A stretch of DNA of 64,000 bases. Source: Halogeometricum rufum (GTDB lineage Archaea; Halobacteriota; Halobacteria; Halobacteriales; Haloferacaceae). The translations under genes were made by a program, and so were the position numbers. Below, piece after piece: positions 5,530-17,470 of this stretch (position 1 is its first letter; each line of letters begins with the position of its first letter). The notes beneath the pieces were generated by a model. The model was not told the DNA's origin. It did no database searches and saw only the letters and a list, made by a program, of their open reading frames with translations. The stretch lies in contig NZ_FOYT01000001.1 of NCBI RefSeq assembly GCF_900112175.1, positions 806,001 through 870,000 on the forward strand, written 5' to 3'.

Positions 5530-7302
5530 TCAGTCCGTCCCGGTCCCGCCGGCCGGTTCGTCCTCGTCGTCGACGGGGGTGAGGTCGAGGTCCGACTCGT
5601 CGGTGAGCGCTTCGACCTCGTCCTCGTCGAGTACCTCCTCGCCGACTTCGAGGCCGAACTCGGCGGCGCGTTCGCGCCAGAACTCGCGGTACCCCTCGTG
5701 CTCGACGTCGCTCGTCACCGTCGTCTCGCCCCGTTCCAGTCGCGCCTGCTTCTCGCGGACCTCGGCGATGAGGTCCTCGGCGAGGTCGGTCGAGAGTTGG
5801 CCGCTCAACTCCGCCTCCGTGATGGCGCTCTCCTCGGCCTGTAGAATGCGCCGTTCGCTCTGCAGTAGTTCCTGTTTGAGCAGGGAGGGCTCCCGCTCCA
5901 GTAGCGAGCGGATGACGTGCTCGAGTTCGCGCTTCTCGCGCCCGTACTCGCGCTTGAACCGTTCGTACACGCCGGTCCGGATGAGGTTCTGCGTGTGGAG
6001 GCGTTCGGCCTCGTTCAGCGCCTCGTCAACCGCCTTCGCCCGCGTGAGGAGGAGGTCGTACAGTTCCCGTTCCTTCCCGGACGTCTGCACGCCCACCGCG
6101 CGGAGGAACCGCTTCATCGACAGGCCCTGGACGACGAGACTGAACGCGGCGATGCCGAACACGAGGACGCGGAGTTGCTGGCGCGGTCCGACGGACTCCG
6201 GCAGTCCGAGGACGAGCGCGATGGGTATCGAACCGTGGAGGCCGCCCCAGACGAGGACGTGCTGGTAGTTCCGCGGCACGTTCGCGTCCGAGAGCCGGTT
6301 GGCCACCTCCGTCAGGGGGTAGACGGCGACGGCGCGCGCGGCGAGGACGAGGACGATGGCGGGCAGCAGCAGTTCCGCCTCGGCGATTATCTGCCGAATC
6401 GGCGTCTTCACGCCGAGCAGGAGGAAGATGAACGTGTTGACGACGTACGCGGCCGTCTCCCACGTGTTGAACACGGCCGTCTTCGTCTGCGCCGACATGG
6501 CGTACTCGCGGCCGCGGTTGCCGATGAGAAGCCCGGCGGCCACGGTGGCGATGACGCCGCTGACGTGGAGGTAGTGCTCGGCGACGAGGAACGCCCCGTA
6601 GGCGAGGACGACGGTGAGCACGATTTCGGTCATGTGCTCGTCGAGGTTCGCCATCAGGCGGTAGACGAAGTAGCCCGCGGCGAGTCCGACGACTGCGCCG
6701 CCGCCGGCGGAGACGACGATGCCGCCCGCGAGTTCCCCGACGCCCGCTATCGTCGCGAGGTCCGCGGCGCTGTCGCCCGCCTCGACCAGCGCGAGGAGGG
6801 CGGAGAAGATGACGACGGAGATGCCGTCGTTCAGCAGGCTCTCGCCCTCCACGAGGACGGCGAGGCGGTCCGGAACCCCCACCTGCTTGAACAGCGCCAA
6901 CACGGAGACGGGGTCCGTCGGGAGGACGATGGTGCCGAACAGGAGGCCGATGAGCAGGGTGTAGCCGAGCAGTTCCGTGGCGACGAGTCCGACGACGACG
7001 ATGGACGCCGCCAGTCCCACCGTCGCGAGCGTCAGCATCACCGGGAAGTTCGACCTGAACTCGTCGATGTCCGTCGTCGCCGCCCCCTCGAACAGCAGGG
7101 GCGGCAGGACGACGAGGAGGATGATGTCGTGCGTGAGCGTGATGTCTATCTCCAGTCCGACGATGGACGCGCCGAACCCCGCGATGAGGAGCGCGATGGT
7201 GTACGGGATGCGTCCGATTTTGGCCAGTACCGCGCCGACGCCGCCCGCGATGAGAAAGACGGTCAACAGGTCGATGAGTTGTTGTTCCAGCCCACTCGCC
7301 AT
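5530..7302 (-). CDS. Na+/H+ antiporter, CPA1/NhaP type
   Basis: Plasma-membrane cation/proton antiporter, 590 residues. Residues 1-410 contain about twelve membrane segments with the CPA1 motifs PTDPVSV and ESLLNDGISVV, the latter holding the ion-binding Asn-Asp. Residues 410-590 form a long charged cytoplasmic tail, largely helical and coiled-coil-like (rich in Glu, Arg and Leu), then an acidic end. In halophiles such proteins expel Na+ and help pH homeostasis. The ATG at 7302 (MASGLEQQ) is preferred to 7326 (MGPENELS); both are possible. Monocistronic. Confidence 0.88.
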   Translation of the reverse strand: MASGLEQQLIDLLTVFLIAGGVGAVLAKIGRIPYTIALLIAGFGASIVGLEIDITLTHDIILLVVLPPLLFEGAATTDIDEFRSNFPVMLTLATVGLAASIVVVGLVATELLGYTLLIGLLFGTIVLPTDPVSVLALFKQVGVPDRLAVLVEGESLLNDGISVVIFSALLALVEAGDSAADLATIAGVGELAGGIVVSAGGGAVVGLAAGYFVYRLMANLDEHMTEIVLTVVLAYGAFLVAEHYLHVSGVIATVAAGLLIGNRGREYAMSAQTKTAVFNTWETAAYVVNTFIFLLLGVKTPIRQIIAEAELLLPAIVLVLAARAVAVYPLTEVANRLSDANVPRNYQHVLVWGGLHGSIPIALVLGLPESVGPRQQLRVLVFGIAAFSLVVQGLSMKRFLRAVGVQTSGKERELYDLLLTRAKAVDEALNEAERLHTQNLIRTGVYERFKREYGREKRELEHVIRSLLEREPSLLKQELLQSERRILQAEESAITEAELSGQLSTDLAEDLIAEVREKQARLERGETTVTSDVEHEGYREFWRERAAEFGLEVGEEVLDEDEVEALTDESDLDLTPVDDEDEPAGGTGTD

Positions 7303-7406
7303 TGACAGTTCGTTCTCGGGGCCCACGGTTAGGTTCGGTGGCAGGCGGACGGAGGGTGCGGAGGGGGCGACGGAGCGCGGTGGTAAGGAGAAGGCGATGG
7401 GGGCCC

Positions 7407-8207
7407 TCAGAGCGGGCGCGTCGGGGCGACGTCACCGACGGGCGTCGCGTCCCGCCACACCCACTCGAACAGGTCGTTCCCGAACCGCACCGCGGTGTCG
7501 GAGTCGGCGACCAGTTCCGTACTCGGGTCGTACGACCCGTCCAGTCGCGGCAGCGAGAGGAACGTCGTTCCGTCGGCGACGGCGAGGGCGAACGACACGT
7601 CCGCGACGCGGACGGTGAGGTTCTCGGGGATGGGGACGTCGCCGTCGTCGTGCCGGCGAACCTCGTCGACGACGGCTTCGGTGACGAGGAGGCGGCCGGG
7701 TCTGTCCTCGCACACCTCCCGGAGCGTCTGTCCGAGGTCCGGGAAGTGGACCGGCGAGACGACGGCCACCTCCGCGGCGTTCCGGAGACTGTCGTGGATG
7801 AGCCGAATCGCGCCCGCCGGGTCCGTCTCGGAGACGCGAAACACGTCCAGCCCTTCCAGTTCGGACAGGCGGGCACGGAAGGGGTCGGGGAGCGCTCGGA
7901 TGTCGTGGGTGCGCCAGTAGTCGAGGTCGGTCCACAACGTCGACTCCAACCGCCGCCGCCGTTCGACGGCGTCCGCGACGACGATTCCCACGCCGGTGAG
8001 TCGGAGTCGTTCGCCGTCGTCCACTTCGAGCACGCCGTGCTCTCGGAGGTCGTTCACCGCCGCGTAGACGCCCGACTCGCTGGCGTCGAGGGCGGAACAG
8101 AGCGCCCGGGTCGTCGCAGACTCTGCGGCGAGCGTCGTCACGACGGACTCGCGAGTGGTGGAACTCGTGACGTACTCGACGACCGGCGGTGCCCCGTCTT
8201 CGTTCAC
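7407..8207 (-). CDS. winged-helix regulator with FilR1-type effector domain
   Basis: Transcriptional regulator of 266 residues. Residues 10-75 form a winged helix (TRESVVTTLA, then CSALDASESGVYAAVNDLRE as recognition part, wing GVLEVDDGERLRLT). The C-terminal 150 residues match the FilR1 (methanogenesis-regulator-like) domain common in haloarchaeal regulators of this kind. The likely start is the GTG at 8207 (VNEDGAPP); the longer reading frame to 8429 would cross a promoter-like CCTAAACCC at about 8231 and low-quality Arg/Pro-rich sequence. It diverges from the DUF4129 operon across 375 bases containing two palindromes. Confidence 0.8.
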   Translation of the reverse strand: MNEDGAPPVVEYVTSSTTRESVVTTLAAESATTRALCSALDASESGVYAAVNDLREHGVLEVDDGERLRLTGVGIVVADAVERRRRLESTLWTDLDYWRTHDIRALPDPFRARLSELEGLDVFRVSETDPAGAIRLIHDSLRNAAEVAVVSPVHFPDLGQTLREVCEDRPGRLLVTEAVVDEVRRHDDGDVPIPENLTVRVADVSFALAVADGTTFLSLPRLDGSYDPSTELVADSDTAVRFGNDLFEWVWRDATPVGDVAPTRPL

Positions 8208-8582
8208 TCCTTCGAGTCGACGTGGTGCGAACCTAAACCCAACGGTGCGGCCTCGGTGACCGCAGGGGCCGAAGAGTTGCGGGGAAAAGGTGGGCGGCAG
8301 ATGAGGTGCGCGTCGTCGACTGGCGGGGTCGACTTCGAGGGGTCTCACGTCCCACGGACGGACCTGCACGGGCACACGTCCGCTGGGACGTATCGTTCTG
8401 AGTGCGCATCCCACTTCAAAGTTTATCAATTCTGATAATAATTCTCCGGGAGAATTTCAAAGTTCCAGTCCAGCTTGAATCTCTCGCCCCGGCTGGAAGC
8501 AGGGGGTCGGGGCCGCGGGTTTCTGTCAGCACGACACGACAACCTCGAAACGCATTTACTGTGTGTCCCGGTATGTCGTGGC
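8208..8582. other. 375-base divergent intergenic region
   Basis: No convincing gene. It holds promoter-like DNA for both neighbours (CCTAAACCC near 8231 for the minus-strand regulator; CATTTACT near 8552 for the plus-strand gene at 8583) and a strikingly AT-rich island at 8415-8465 with two palindromes. Confidence 0.7.
8415..8465. promoter_or_regulatory. twin palindromes flanked by a direct repeat
   Basis: TTATCA-ATTC-TGATAA at 8423-8438 and AATTCTCC-G-GGAGAATT at 8440-8456 are both perfect inverted repeats, one base apart. They are bracketed by TTCAAAGTT at 8415-8423 and 8456-8464. The AT content is far above the surroundings. Likely an operator or the promoter/terminator of a small RNA; the distance to both flanking starts (over 115 bases) argues against a simple promoter-overlapping operator. 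Confidence 0.55.
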
Positions 8583-13926: not shown

Positions 13927-14011
13927 GCCGAGGTAGCCTAGCCCGGCCAAGGCGGTAGATTCGAAATCTACTGTCCATTCGGACACGTGAGTTCAAATCT
14001 CACCCTCGGCG
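13927..14011 (+). tRNA. tRNA-Ser, anticodon CGA
   Basis: 85-base type II tRNA reading UCG. Acceptor arm GCCGAGG pairs with CCTCGGC and the discriminator is G. The anticodon arm GTAGA-TTCGAAA-TCTAC gives CGA at the centre of the loop; the long variable arm GTCC-ATTC-GGAC marks a serine tRNA; the T arm is GTGAG-TTCAAAT-CTCAC. CCA is not encoded (the gene is followed by CCTTTTC, whose T-run may stop transcription). No intron. Confidence 0.97.
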
Positions 14012-14336
14012 CCTTTTCACAGACTCACCCGGCGAGCGACGCGTCTCGTCGCGCCGCGATGCGCGTGAGCGTCGCGCGAGTCCGCCGTCGACGTGACGTT
14101 CAGACGGGACTCCGGGCGCGCAGTCCCGACCGGTCGGTGGTGACGCGTTTCGGGCACAGGAAATATGACGATGAAACTACAACTGTGGATGGGTGCCTCC
14201 CCACAGGCACCCACCTACCGCGTCCGGTACGCGGCGTTCGACCGTCTCCCGACTACCCTCTGCGGCAGTCCTCCGCCCCGACCCGAGACTGACTGATGTT
14301 CGGAACACACACGACGACGCGACGAGGTGACGCGCG
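14012..14336 (+). other. 325-base leader region with hairpin and mini-ORFs
   Basis: No standard gene. A TATA-like GGAAATATGA at about 14158-14167 lies before a perfect 9-base hairpin (14190-14213), a 43-codon reading frame at 14165-14296 and a 14-codon frame starting at its stop (ATG 14296) and ending on the GTG of the next gene. The region may be a transcribed leader of the winged-helix gene. Confidence 0.5.
14190..14213. ncRNA. hairpin in leader of winged-helix gene
   Basis: TGGGTGCCT-CCCCAC-AGGCACCCA is a perfect nine-pair stem with a six-base loop. It is 124 bases before the GTG of the winged-helix gene and just downstream of a TATA-like box, so it should be in the 5' leader. It could be an attenuator or the core of a small RNA; no known riboswitch class fits. 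Confidence 0.4.
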
Positions 14337-14657
14337 GTGAACGACCGGTACGACCCCGACGAACTCGACAAGGACGACGCGTTCGAACTCGCGACGACGG
14401 AACGGCGACGACACCTCCTCAGAGTCCTCTCTGAAGAGGGGCGAACGCCGCTCGGAGAACTCGTGGACGCCATCGTCACCGAGGTGCACGCCGACCCGTC
14501 GCACGACGGCGCCGGCCTCCCCCACGAGAGCGTCCGTATCTCGCTTCTCCACACCGACCTCCCCAAACTCGTCGCCGAAGACGTGGTCGTCTACGACGAG
14601 AGCGACGGCGCCGTCGCGCCGGGCGAGAACATCGACGACCTGGACCCACTCGTTTGA
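14337..14657 (+). CDS. small winged-helix protein (DUF7344-like)
   Basis: 106-residue acidic protein with a winged-helix core: FELATTERRRHLLRVLSEEG, TPLGELVDAIV, then VRISLLHTDLPKLVAEDVV as recognition helix and wing strand, ending in an acidic tail. Haloarchaea have many such single-domain proteins, mostly unassigned regulators. GTG start at 14337 is supported by a Shine-Dalgarno-like GAGGTGA at 14324-14330, unusual in a genome where most genes look leaderless, which agrees with a transcribed leader. It lies 248 bases before a gene for a secreted cysteine-rich protein that it could control. Confidence 0.78.
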   Translation: MNDRYDPDELDKDDAFELATTERRRHLLRVLSEEGRTPLGELVDAIVTEVHADPSHDGAGLPHESVRISLLHTDLPKLVAEDVVVYDESDGAVAPGENIDDLDPLV

Positions 14658-14661
14658 CGAA

Positions 14662-14692
14662 AACTCTCTGCGCTAGGAGCGCTTAGAGAGTT
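14662..14692 (+). terminator. hairpin after winged-helix gene
   Basis: AACTCTCT-GCGC-TAGGA-GCGC-TT-AGAGAGTT forms a twelve-pair stem with a TT bulge and five-base loop, four bases after the stop codon. There is no T-run after it, so it may stabilise the mRNA end rather than terminate. Confidence 0.45.
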
Positions 14693-14905
14693 CTCGATGA
14701 GTCTCCTACCCGGCAGTGAATACCTTTCACCGACCAGAACTGGACGATATCTACCCACGAACCCGGATCGTATCCGTACTGGCGGTTCTTCGTATTCACG
14801 ATGGCAGTTCCTCGGATTGTCAGCGAGAGCGACCTCTCCGCCACAAGTGACAATTGAGCTAAATTATTTGCCGTTCAAACTCGAGGACCGGAGCAGGGGA
14901 CGTAA

Positions 14906-15595
14906 ATGACTGACAATACCACACATGGGGAGCCGACGCGACGACTCAGTCGTCGAACCGTTCTGCGGGCGACGGCAGCATCGGGAATCGGGACGCTCGC
15001 GCTCTCGTCGACGGCGAGCGCAGAGGGGGCGAAACTCGCGCAGGTCAACTTCTGCGGCTGTAGCGAGGTGTGCGTCGTCCGCGAGAACGACAACGGTGAC
15101 GAGTCGTTCGGGAACAACGAGGACGACGAGGCCGACAGCATGGGTCCGATAACGGTCATCCGGGCCCGGGAAACCGGCGACGGATGGGAGTTCGACAACG
15201 TCATCTACTCGACGACGGGATACTTCTGCGACGACAGCGGCGAGGACGGCTGGAAGATTATCGGCGTCTACACCGGAAGCGAGGCGCCGTTCCCCTCGAA
15301 TCCGACCTGTTTCGTCTGCAATCCGAACCAGTGCGCTCGGAAGGCGCTCGACGCCTACTTGGAGGAGGCACTGGCTATCTGCGTGAACGGCGACCCGGCG
15401 TCGTTCGGGCGGTTCAGCCACTCCTGTAACGGAAAGCCGTACCGGTTCCACGTCGTTCGCGGACGCTGCGGTACCCCGGGGAAGGACCCCAAAGGCCGGA
15501 AGAAGTCAGCGGACGAGGATCAGAATGGCGATACTGACAACGGCAATCGGGGCGGCCGAAAACGGGGCAAGAACCGCGGCCGCGGCAACTCGTGA
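14906..15595 (+). CDS. Tat-exported ten-cysteine protein of unknown function
   Basis: 229-residue secreted protein. The N-terminus has a twin-arginine signal (SRRTVLR at residues 15-21) and a cleavage-like ASTASAE/ASA site near residue 39, with no lipobox cysteine, so it should be released. The mature part has ten cysteines (50, 52, 56, 108, 135, 138, 143, 159, 174, 188), an even number suited to five disulfides or to metal sites, including CGCSEVC and CFVCNPNQC. The last 40 residues are Lys/Arg/Gly/Asn-rich, hence basic, which is rare in haloarchaea. An AT-rich promoter-like CTAAATTATTTG lies at about 14859-14870. I do not recognise the family; a bacteriocin-like or signalling role is possible. 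Confidence 0.75.
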   Translation: MTDNTTHGEPTRRLSRRTVLRATAASGIGTLALSSTASAEGAKLAQVNFCGCSEVCVVRENDNGDESFGNNEDDEADSMGPITVIRARETGDGWEFDNVIYSTTGYFCDDSGEDGWKIIGVYTGSEAPFPSNPTCFVCNPNQCARKALDAYLEEALAICVNGDPASFGRFSHSCNGKPYRFHVVRGRCGTPGKDPKGRKKSADEDQNGDTDNGNRGGRKRGKNRGRGNS

Positions 15596-15665
15596 CGAAG
15601 CGACCGACGGAACCGGCCGGTAAATCCGACGTCGTCGGCTAGGACTGCGCTGCCTCACCTTTCCT

Positions 15666-15687
15666 GTTCGTTCGTACCGAACGGTAT
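15666..15687. promoter_or_regulatory. overlapping palindromes between two genes
   Basis: CGTTCG-TAC-CGAACG and, overlapping it, TACCG-AA-CGGTA are both perfect inverted repeats, about 160 bases before the sulfite-oxidase-like gene. Possible operator; the weak context gives little else. Confidence 0.35.
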
Positions 15688-15844
15688 AGGCCCCGCTCTT
15701 CTGCGCGGAGACGCCCTCTCGTTCACGAACTCGGCCGGGGGGATTGAGACCACGCTCGAGGGGGGTGACGGACCGAGTTTCCCGAGATTATGTATAGATT
15801 CTGAATAAGGTACATCCCCATTCAGCCCCGACTACAGACAACAG

Positions 15845-17470
15845 ATGTCTTCGATACAGCCCGCACGGCAACCGCGGCGGACACCCATCGTCGCACTCCT
15901 CGCAGGCGTCGCCGCCGTCGCCGGGTCGTACGCGACGGCCGGGTTCACCCCCGCGTTCGTCGTCGCGCCCGTCGAGGCGTTCCTGACGCGGACGGTCCCC
16001 GACGCGGTACTCCGGTTCGCCGTCACCACCCTCGGGACGTTCGCCGGCATCGACCACTTCGGCCAGTTGCTCAACCTCGCGCTGGCCGTCGGTCTCGCGA
16101 CGGCGACGCTCTCGGCCGTCTCGTTCGTCGCCCTCGTCGCGGCCCGTCGGTTCGGCGGCCGGTCCGCGTCCGCCCGACTCGCGTCGGTGGGTCTGGTCGG
16201 CGCAGCCACGTGGGCGACCACGGCCCTGCTCACGGGTCGCCCGACGCTCTCGCTCGCGGCGGGTCTCGGCGGGGCCGCCGTCGTCGCCGTGGCGGAACTC
16301 GCCGCCGCGACGGGCGGGTCGGCCGCCGGTGCCGACTCGACGGCGGCCGACCGGCGGCGTCTGCTCGGCGGCGTGGCGACGACGTTCGGCGTGGGCGTCG
16401 TCGGTTACCTGCTCGGGTCGTCGTCGGACTCCGCCGACACCGCGGCGTCGGTGAGCACCGACTCCGCACCGGCGGACGCGGAGGCGGTCGAATCGGGTTC
16501 GTCGGCCGAACGGACCGCCGCCGACGAGGTATCCGAGGAACCGTCGGTGGTCGACCGCTACCTCGCCGAGGCCGAACGCCGGTCGCTCGACGTGGCGGGG
16601 TTGGAGGGACTCGTCAGCACCGACTTCTATCAGGTCGACATCAGCAACGTGGACCCGAACCTCCGGGCCGACCAGTGGTCGCTCTCGGTGACCGGGAGCG
16701 TCGAACGCCCCCTGTCGTACACCTACGACGAGTTGACCGCGATGGGAACCGAACACCGGTTCGTCACGCTCCGGTGCGTCAGCGACCCCGTCGACGGGAA
16801 ACTGATGGACACCGACCTCTGGACGGGCGTCCCCATCTCGCGCATCTTAGAGGAGGTGAACCCGCAGGGAAGTCACGTCATGCTCCGCGCGGCGGACGGC
16901 TACTTCGAGGAGTTCCCCGTGGAGGCGCTGACGGAGGGGTTCCTCGCCTACGGGAAGGGTGGCGGACCGCTCCCCCGCGGGCACGGCCACCCCGTCAGAG
17001 CGCTCATCCCCGGTCACTGGGGGGAGATAAACGTCAAGTGGGTCACCGAGATGGAGATTCTGGACGGCCCCGAGAAGGGCTTCTGGGAGCGGCGAGGCTG
17101 GCACGGCACCGGCCCGGTCAACACCGTCGCCAAGCTCTCGGCCAGCGAGCGACTTGACGGCCGGCGACGGGTGGGCGGCCACGCCTACGCCGGCACGCGC
17201 GGCATCGAACGCGTCGAAGTCTCCGTCGACGGCGGCGAGACGTGGGCCGACGCGACGCTGTCGGACCGCCTCCCCGCCGGCACCGACGAGTCCGGCGAGG
17301 CGGCCGAAGACGCGTGGCGGCAGTGGACGTACACCTACGACGACCCCGGCCGCGAGCACACCGTCGTCGTCCGCGCCACCGACGGCACCGGCGCGGTCCA
17401 ACCGCGCGAGGAGGAGGGCCCCTATCCCAGCGGTGCCACCGGGTGGGCGTCGAAGACGTTCCCGAAGTAG
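15845..17470 (+). CDS. membrane-anchored sulfite-oxidase-like molybdoenzyme
   Basis: 541 residues. Four to five membrane helices (about 13-40, 72-101, 113-131, 136-156, 174-191) precede a linker of Ser/Ala/Asp, then a molybdopterin domain (about 255-420) and the sulfite-oxidase dimerisation domain (about 425-541, Ig-like). The expected molybdenum cysteine is C311 in FVTLRCVSDP, and GHGHPVRALIPGHWG is the conserved pterin-site motif. The fifth helix is preceded by DRRRLLGG, similar to a Tat motif, suggesting the catalytic domain is outside the cell. The substrate is unknown; sulfite or an S-/N-oxide are options. An AT-rich promoter (TTATGTATAG) lies at about 15788-15798. Confidence 0.88.
   Translation: MSSIQPARQPRRTPIVALLAGVAAVAGSYATAGFTPAFVVAPVEAFLTRTVPDAVLRFAVTTLGTFAGIDHFGQLLNLALAVGLATATLSAVSFVALVAARRFGGRSASARLASVGLVGAATWATTALLTGRPTLSLAAGLGGAAVVAVAELAAATGGSAAGADSTAADRRRLLGGVATTFGVGVVGYLLGSSSDSADTAASVSTDSAPADAEAVESGSSAERTAADEVSEEPSVVDRYLAEAERRSLDVAGLEGLVSTDFYQVDISNVDPNLRADQWSLSVTGSVERPLSYTYDELTAMGTEHRFVTLRCVSDPVDGKLMDTDLWTGVPISRILEEVNPQGSHVMLRAADGYFEEFPVEALTEGFLAYGKGGGPLPRGHGHPVRALIPGHWGEINVKWVTEMEILDGPEKGFWERRGWHGTGPVNTVAKLSASERLDGRRRVGGHAYAGTRGIERVEVSVDGGETWADATLSDRLPAGTDESGEAAEDAWRQWTYTYDDPGREHTVVVRATDGTGAVQPREEEGPYPSGATGWASKTFPK

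Follow-up and report, generated by a model that had tools for sequence, protein, structure and literature searches.

The window, by which we mean the whole stretch of 64,000 nucleotides of Halogeometricum rufum DNA that was analyzed, carries a small gene pair beside a tRNA-Ser(CGA) gene: a DUF7344 helix-turn-helix (HTH) gene and a gene for a secreted protein with ten cysteines (Table 1).

Table 1. The gene pair, its parts and its island (positions in the window)
Feature	Coordinates	Strand	Basis or remark
tRNA-Ser(CGA), left edge of variable island	13927..14013	+	ARAGORN; conserved in four congeners
Species-specific island	14077..15795	.	blastn and tblastn against four congeners
DUF7344 (PF24035) helix-turn-helix gene, candidate regulator	14337..14657	+	106 aa; E 1.3e-14
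Inverted repeat AACTCTCT...AGAGAGTT, possible terminator or operator (weak)	14662..14692	+	just past the HTH stop codon
AT-rich TATA-like stretch, possible own promoter	14861..14869	+	~40 bp before the start codon; sequence reading only
Secreted ten-cysteine protein gene	14906..15595	+	229-aa ORF; single copy in this genome
Tat-type signal peptide, residues 1-39 (SRRTVLR ... ASA/E)	14906..15022	+	sequence inspection; sub-threshold Pfam TAT_signal; arrangement recurs in relatives
Conserved family domain, residues 43-150 (FCGCSEVC ... C108 ... KIIG ... NPNQCA, terminal helix)	15032..15355	+	profiles A2, A3; predicted beta-sandwich
C-terminal cysteine extension, residues 151-193 (C159, C174, C188)	15356..15484	+	
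Low-complexity tail, residues 194-229, end GNRGGRKRGKNRGRGNS	15485..15592	+	

The Tat signal was read by inspection: the motif LSRRTVLRA is followed by a likely A-x-A cleavage site after residue 39, and the protein scores below the cut-off of the Pfam TAT model. Cysteines stand at residues 50, 52, 56, 108, 135, 138, 143, 159, 174 and 188 and make up ~5% of the mature protein, against a mean of 0.8% in neighboring proteins, of which 4 of 305 reach 5% or more. The body (residues 40-193) is acidic, with a pI of 4.5; the G/N/K/R tail (residues 194-229) is basic, with a pI of 10.5 and a net charge of +6 over the last 19 residues. GC3 is 0.80 in the secreted-protein gene and 0.83 in the HTH gene, versus 0.905 in each of two flanking genes. 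An earlier note on this DNA had described a Tat signal, an even count of ten cysteines, a basic Gly/Asn/Lys/Arg tail, a flanking winged-helix gene and lower GC, and was right on each of them. The inverted repeat folds at -20.6 kcal/mol (z -1.84), and 10 of 200 shuffles did as well. A search of the same genome for extra copies gave two further matches, both weak; the better of them (L002) was rejected as low-complexity and overlapping an unrelated acidic ORF.

The surroundings of the pair are conserved up to about 14040-14076 on the left and from about 15796 on the right, and the flanking MoxR-type ATPase and molybdopterin oxidoreductase genes are present in all four congeners. The tRNA-Ser(CGA) gene stands at the left junction in 5/5 genomes (window and congeners), while the pair itself is absent from 4/4 congeners. 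The same site is an empty gap of 480 bp in G635; it holds polysaccharide genes (flippase, glycosyltransferase, DegT) in G287, and in G634 and G636 it encodes an SBF-family permease together with an Excalibur-like protein. A 24-bp segment of the tRNA 3' end occurs a second time downstream in G635 and G636, not in the window, and likely reflects an earlier integration there. Elsewhere, the nearest sequence comes from G322, a genome of another taxonomic family: a decayed copy, interrupted by stops and frame changes, that still aligns over residues 14-198. The empty or variable sites of the congeners, the tRNA junction and the decayed distant copy together argue that the pair is accessory, as the earlier note had supposed, and mobile.

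Some further observations concern this site and its cargo. Positions 13927-15845 of the window form a tRNA-Ser(CGA) hotspot, occupied by other cargo or by none, up to the molybdopterin oxidoreductase gene, in every congener examined. In two congeners the hotspot encodes proteins (L133 7171-7941, L134 6995-7714) in which long Thr-Pro repeats are combined with an Excalibur-like DYDCxxF motif at the C-terminus. The window protein has a decayed full-length counterpart in another taxonomic family (L099, about 6765-7319, minus strand), amid carbamoyltransferase and polysaccharide deacetylase genes, and the VVRGRCGTPG part of the cysteine extension is also found in the decayed copy. Proximity to a tRNA gene was considered as a trait of the whole family described below and dropped: it holds at 2 of ~20 loci, which by a rough estimate is not significant.

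A patchy haloarchaeal domain family

Residues 43-150 belong to a family, collected in alignments A1-A3, for which a profile from a 20-row alignment was searched against 392 haloarchaeal genomes. Checked for universal presence, the domain proved patchy: 26 of the 392 genomes and 20 of 95 genera have it, the last few of these matches being weak. It occurs in 8 of 170 genomes of the window's own taxonomic family and, within the genus, in this genome only; in a phylum sample of 295 genomes, matches were confined to genomes of the same order. Weak profile matches (L119-L123, L139) were left out of the statistics below.

The motif F-x-G-C-S-Q-V-C...C...[IV][IV]G...NPNxCA defines the domain as a modular unit: F-x-G-C, the cysteine four residues on, a mid-domain cysteine, a KIIG-like strand and NPNxCA are near-invariant or invariant in the alignment. 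The window protein has FxGC-x-x-[VIL]-C, the mid-domain cysteine, [IV][IV][GA] and NPNxCA, in that order. As it is a row of its own model, its profile score is not independent; independent support for membership comes from the G322 copy, with a 57%-identical N-terminus, and from matches outside the model. The core cysteines and motifs are found again in relatives, and among the 392 genomes these distant relatives share more with the window protein than a Tat signal. Proteins beginning FCA...ETFSY (L005, L009, L011 and others) were set aside since they match mainly through the Tat signal; with L017, L019 and L022 they form a separate Tat-exported haloarchaeal family, repeated across one genus-level group.

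The earlier note saw no sequence match. This stands for named families and fails overall, as there is a haloarchaeal family. The domain has no match in Pfam, NCBIfam, PHROG or PDB, two PHROGs matches (one at E 0.05, one at 0.078) being taken as chance; PADLOC gave no match; and no enzyme or adhesin family was among the matches. Viral contigs, plasmids, phages and PDB contained no close relative of the window protein, and single relatives used as queries against viral contigs and plasmids likewise found nothing. The window protein as a query gave no matches in a genome-collection scan. A motif scan returned three haloarchaeal members, from Natronococcus pandeyae (L055), a Haloarculaceae MAG (L058) and Halapricum (L063, frameshifted), and 13 other matches, all bacterial and chance-like. 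Neither the motif strings nor DUF7344 appeared in the literature searched. The domain is new to the libraries and literature searched; the secreted disulfide-rich module, as a kind, is already known.

AlphaFold predicts a seven-strand beta-sandwich at moderate confidence (pLDDT 66 and pTM 0.67 for the window domain, modeled with four other rows). The model of the Natronococcus relative (pLDDT 80, pTM 0.75) has the same strand order, with a helix following NPNxCA. The models were built on five-row alignments in which a single frameshifted gene supplied two rows, one for each half. The predicted topology resembles that of fibronectin type III (FN3) and Ig-like modules, and the nearest structures are generic sandwiches of this kind (VIA Z of at most 4.6 for the window model and 5.7 for L055), mostly below 15% identity, or 19-20% for two small de novo designed proteins. 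Any small beta-sandwich is expected to have neighbors of this sort, and the added cysteines and NPNxCA helix are particular to the family. Foldseek gave no structural match with E < 0.001, and the FN3/Ig matches are too weak for the family to be named. Structure prediction and remote homology, which the earlier note recommended, have yielded a plausible fold class, at moderate confidence, and no named family.

A fold of this kind often mediates protein binding, and a small, disulfide-rich, exported protein might inhibit or chaperone a secreted enzyme, for example halolysin, outside the cell. Against this, family members have no recurrent neighbor that encodes a protease or another enzyme, and we consider the idea very improbable. 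The C-terminal extension of halolysin SptA is likewise haloarchaeal, extracellular, cysteine-bearing and part of a secreted protein; compared by description, it differs from the window protein in having two cysteines and in being carried on a protease (PMC3158780).

Cysteine parity, tails and architectures

Cysteine counts of the mature protein are even in all strong full-length members (22/22), versus 37 of 72 controls (neighboring proteins with at least four cysteines) and 6 of 19 Tat-like controls. Over 18 independent loci the excess gives a Fisher p of 4e-5; signal peptides were delimited by a simple rule, and individual counts could be off as a result. Strong relatives have from 2 to 24 cysteines, always even, and ten is not a family constant; the two halves of the frameshifted Halapricum gene total eight by manual count. 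L114, the Ferritin_2 fusion, has lost its core cysteines as a set (FYGTEKLS, NYT and NEVA stand in their place). Even parity and this concerted loss point to disulfides; parity is evidence for such bonds, not proof of them.

The cysteines might instead hold a metal or redox cofactor (CxCxxxC, residues 50-56), making this an extracellular metal-binding protein. The clustered FCGCxxxC is suggestive, and one family copy is joined to Ferritin_2; but that fusion is the copy without these cysteines, the first cysteine of the cluster is missing in many members (FYGC, FIGC, FEGC), and disulfides better explain the even parity. Metal binding therefore seems quite improbable.

Basic tails, with a charge of at least +4 in the last 25 residues, end 5 of 19 independent members (the count takes in the second frame of L063) and 8 of 305 neighboring proteins (p = 4e-4); the rarity of such tails and of such cysteine contents agrees with the unusual composition claimed in the earlier note. 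Several relatives have similar basic or Gly/Asn/Arg tails; in other members tails are neutral, acidic or amphipathic, and many members have no basic tail. With tails this variable, a basic tail recurs in the family but does not define it. The ends differ even between two tandem relatives in G704 (L138 5684-7463): one finishes with a long Gly-Asn repeat and its partner with a basic amphipathic stretch, LFTLLMRIISRFIRAITRLM.

The settings of the domain vary as well. It stands alone after the Tat signal in the window protein, L100, L101/L102, L103, L107, L108, L055 and L058; it is duplicated in tandem, with an R/G tail, in L109/L110; it precedes Ferritin_2 repeats in L114, and repeat-rich or acidic regions in L113 and L111/L112; and it forms the C-terminal end of secreted proteins of 580-750 aa in L115 and L116. 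The L114 protein (6770-8401) is Tat-exported and 543 aa long, and combines Ferritin_2 repeats with a family domain devoid of core cysteines. Fusions to Ferritin_2, to repeat-rich regions and to secreted proteins of 580-750 aa are easier to reconcile with an extracellular module than with a killing peptide.

A killing peptide is what the halocin-like alternative supposes: the exported disulfide-rich protein, or its basic tail, possibly set free by proteolysis, would inhibit neighboring haloarchaea. Tat export, many cysteines, the basic tail and patchy distribution on islands are consistent with this, as are the basic amphipathic ends of some relatives (the second G704 paralogue, L117). Halocin C8 (TIGR04449) is likewise haloarchaeal, Tat-exported and cysteine-rich, and mature HalC8 has ten cysteines. 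TIGR04449 matched nothing in the window protein (E up to 1), in ten relatives (E up to 0.1) or in the genome, and the earlier note was correct to keep halocin C8 apart. ProC8 is a precursor of 283 aa that yields HalI and a peptide of 76 aa on cleavage (PMC11509114). Unlike ProC8, the window protein has its domain right after the signal, an acidic body and a basic tail; the family layout, with the cysteine domain beginning directly after the signal peptide, is not that of an immunity half followed by a short C-terminal cysteine-rich peptide, and the N-terminal immunity half is missing. Protease-released antimicrobial fragments are documented in haloarchaea (PMC12893001): HmHapP (HFX_0892) of Haloferax mediterranei, also secreted and with no obvious enzymatic function, is a protease-activated precursor whose activity lies in an N-terminal alpha-helical fragment, set apart by description from the predicted disulfide-rich beta-sandwich of the window domain. 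An immunity gene was sought near family copies, and no small or membrane gene recurs there. Lacking a halocin C8 match and an immunity gene, and with the domain fused into Ferritin_2 and long secreted proteins, the bacteriocin idea of the earlier note is unsupported, and its alternative of a signal fares no better; a halocin-like role we judge unlikely.

Neighboring genes and a proposed role outside the cell

In the window and at the Natronococcus copy, a DUF7344 gene is the immediate upstream neighbor, in the same orientation; beside the orthologous L115 and L116 copies (G062, G389) it is convergent. This amounts to 3 of ~20 independent loci (binomial p about 0.002, with a background rate from one genome, the window's own, which has 26 copies). 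One could suppose that the secreted protein is a signal or regulator whose state is read via the adjacent DUF7344 protein, as the same-strand order of HTH gene and secreted gene in two genera and the recurrence of DUF7344 might suggest. Most loci, however, have no DUF7344, no receptor or membrane sensor accompanies the pair, DUF7344 is a common family, and simple transcriptional control suffices as an explanation; little probability attaches to such signaling.

Genes of glycan synthesis (DegT, flippases, polysaccharide deacetylases, a carbamoyltransferase) lie near several copies of the family, within a few kb of L055, L099, L107 and L117 as well as of two weak members, L120 and L138; such genes also occupy the window's own insertion site in one congener, G287. 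Flippases, the sole indicator set against a background rate, number 5 in the window's genome and occur near the family at 2 of ~20 loci. The association was spotted after looking, and is therefore treated as a lead.

The account we prefer, to which we give about an even chance, is that of an accessory exported protein with an undescribed haloarchaeal domain, a beta-sandwich held by disulfides, that is bound by its tail to the acidic envelope or exopolysaccharide and controlled by the HTH protein. That is, the DUF7344 protein probably controls transcription of the secreted-protein gene; the Tat pathway, judging from the signal, would export the protein already folded; disulfides, as parity and concerted loss suggest, would form and lock a beta-sandwich domain of ~100 residues; outside the cell, the domain would serve in binding or as a structural unit; and the flexible basic tail may hold the protein electrostatically to acidic envelope or exopolysaccharide. 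Acidic envelope glycans may be the tail's binding target, which the nearby glycan genes weakly support. A mobile, horizontally exchanged module of the cell surface or matrix seems a better description of the protein than a new antibiotic peptide.

A broader view, which we think rather unlikely, supposes that the family is a system of 'sticky modules': a disulfide-locked domain is swapped among secreted proteins and carried on tRNA islands; variable tails adjust, strain by strain, what is bound outside the cell, rivals included; and some tails may be antimicrobial.

Disulfide-rich secreted proteins of this kind stand out from neighboring genes, whose products are low in cysteine, and family analysis has corrected a bacteriocin lead. 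A new domain is set by its motif, cysteine parity and architecture, and its profile can be used for annotation. The family offers a test set for surface-glycan binding in archaea and for the turnover of surface genes at a tRNA hotspot.
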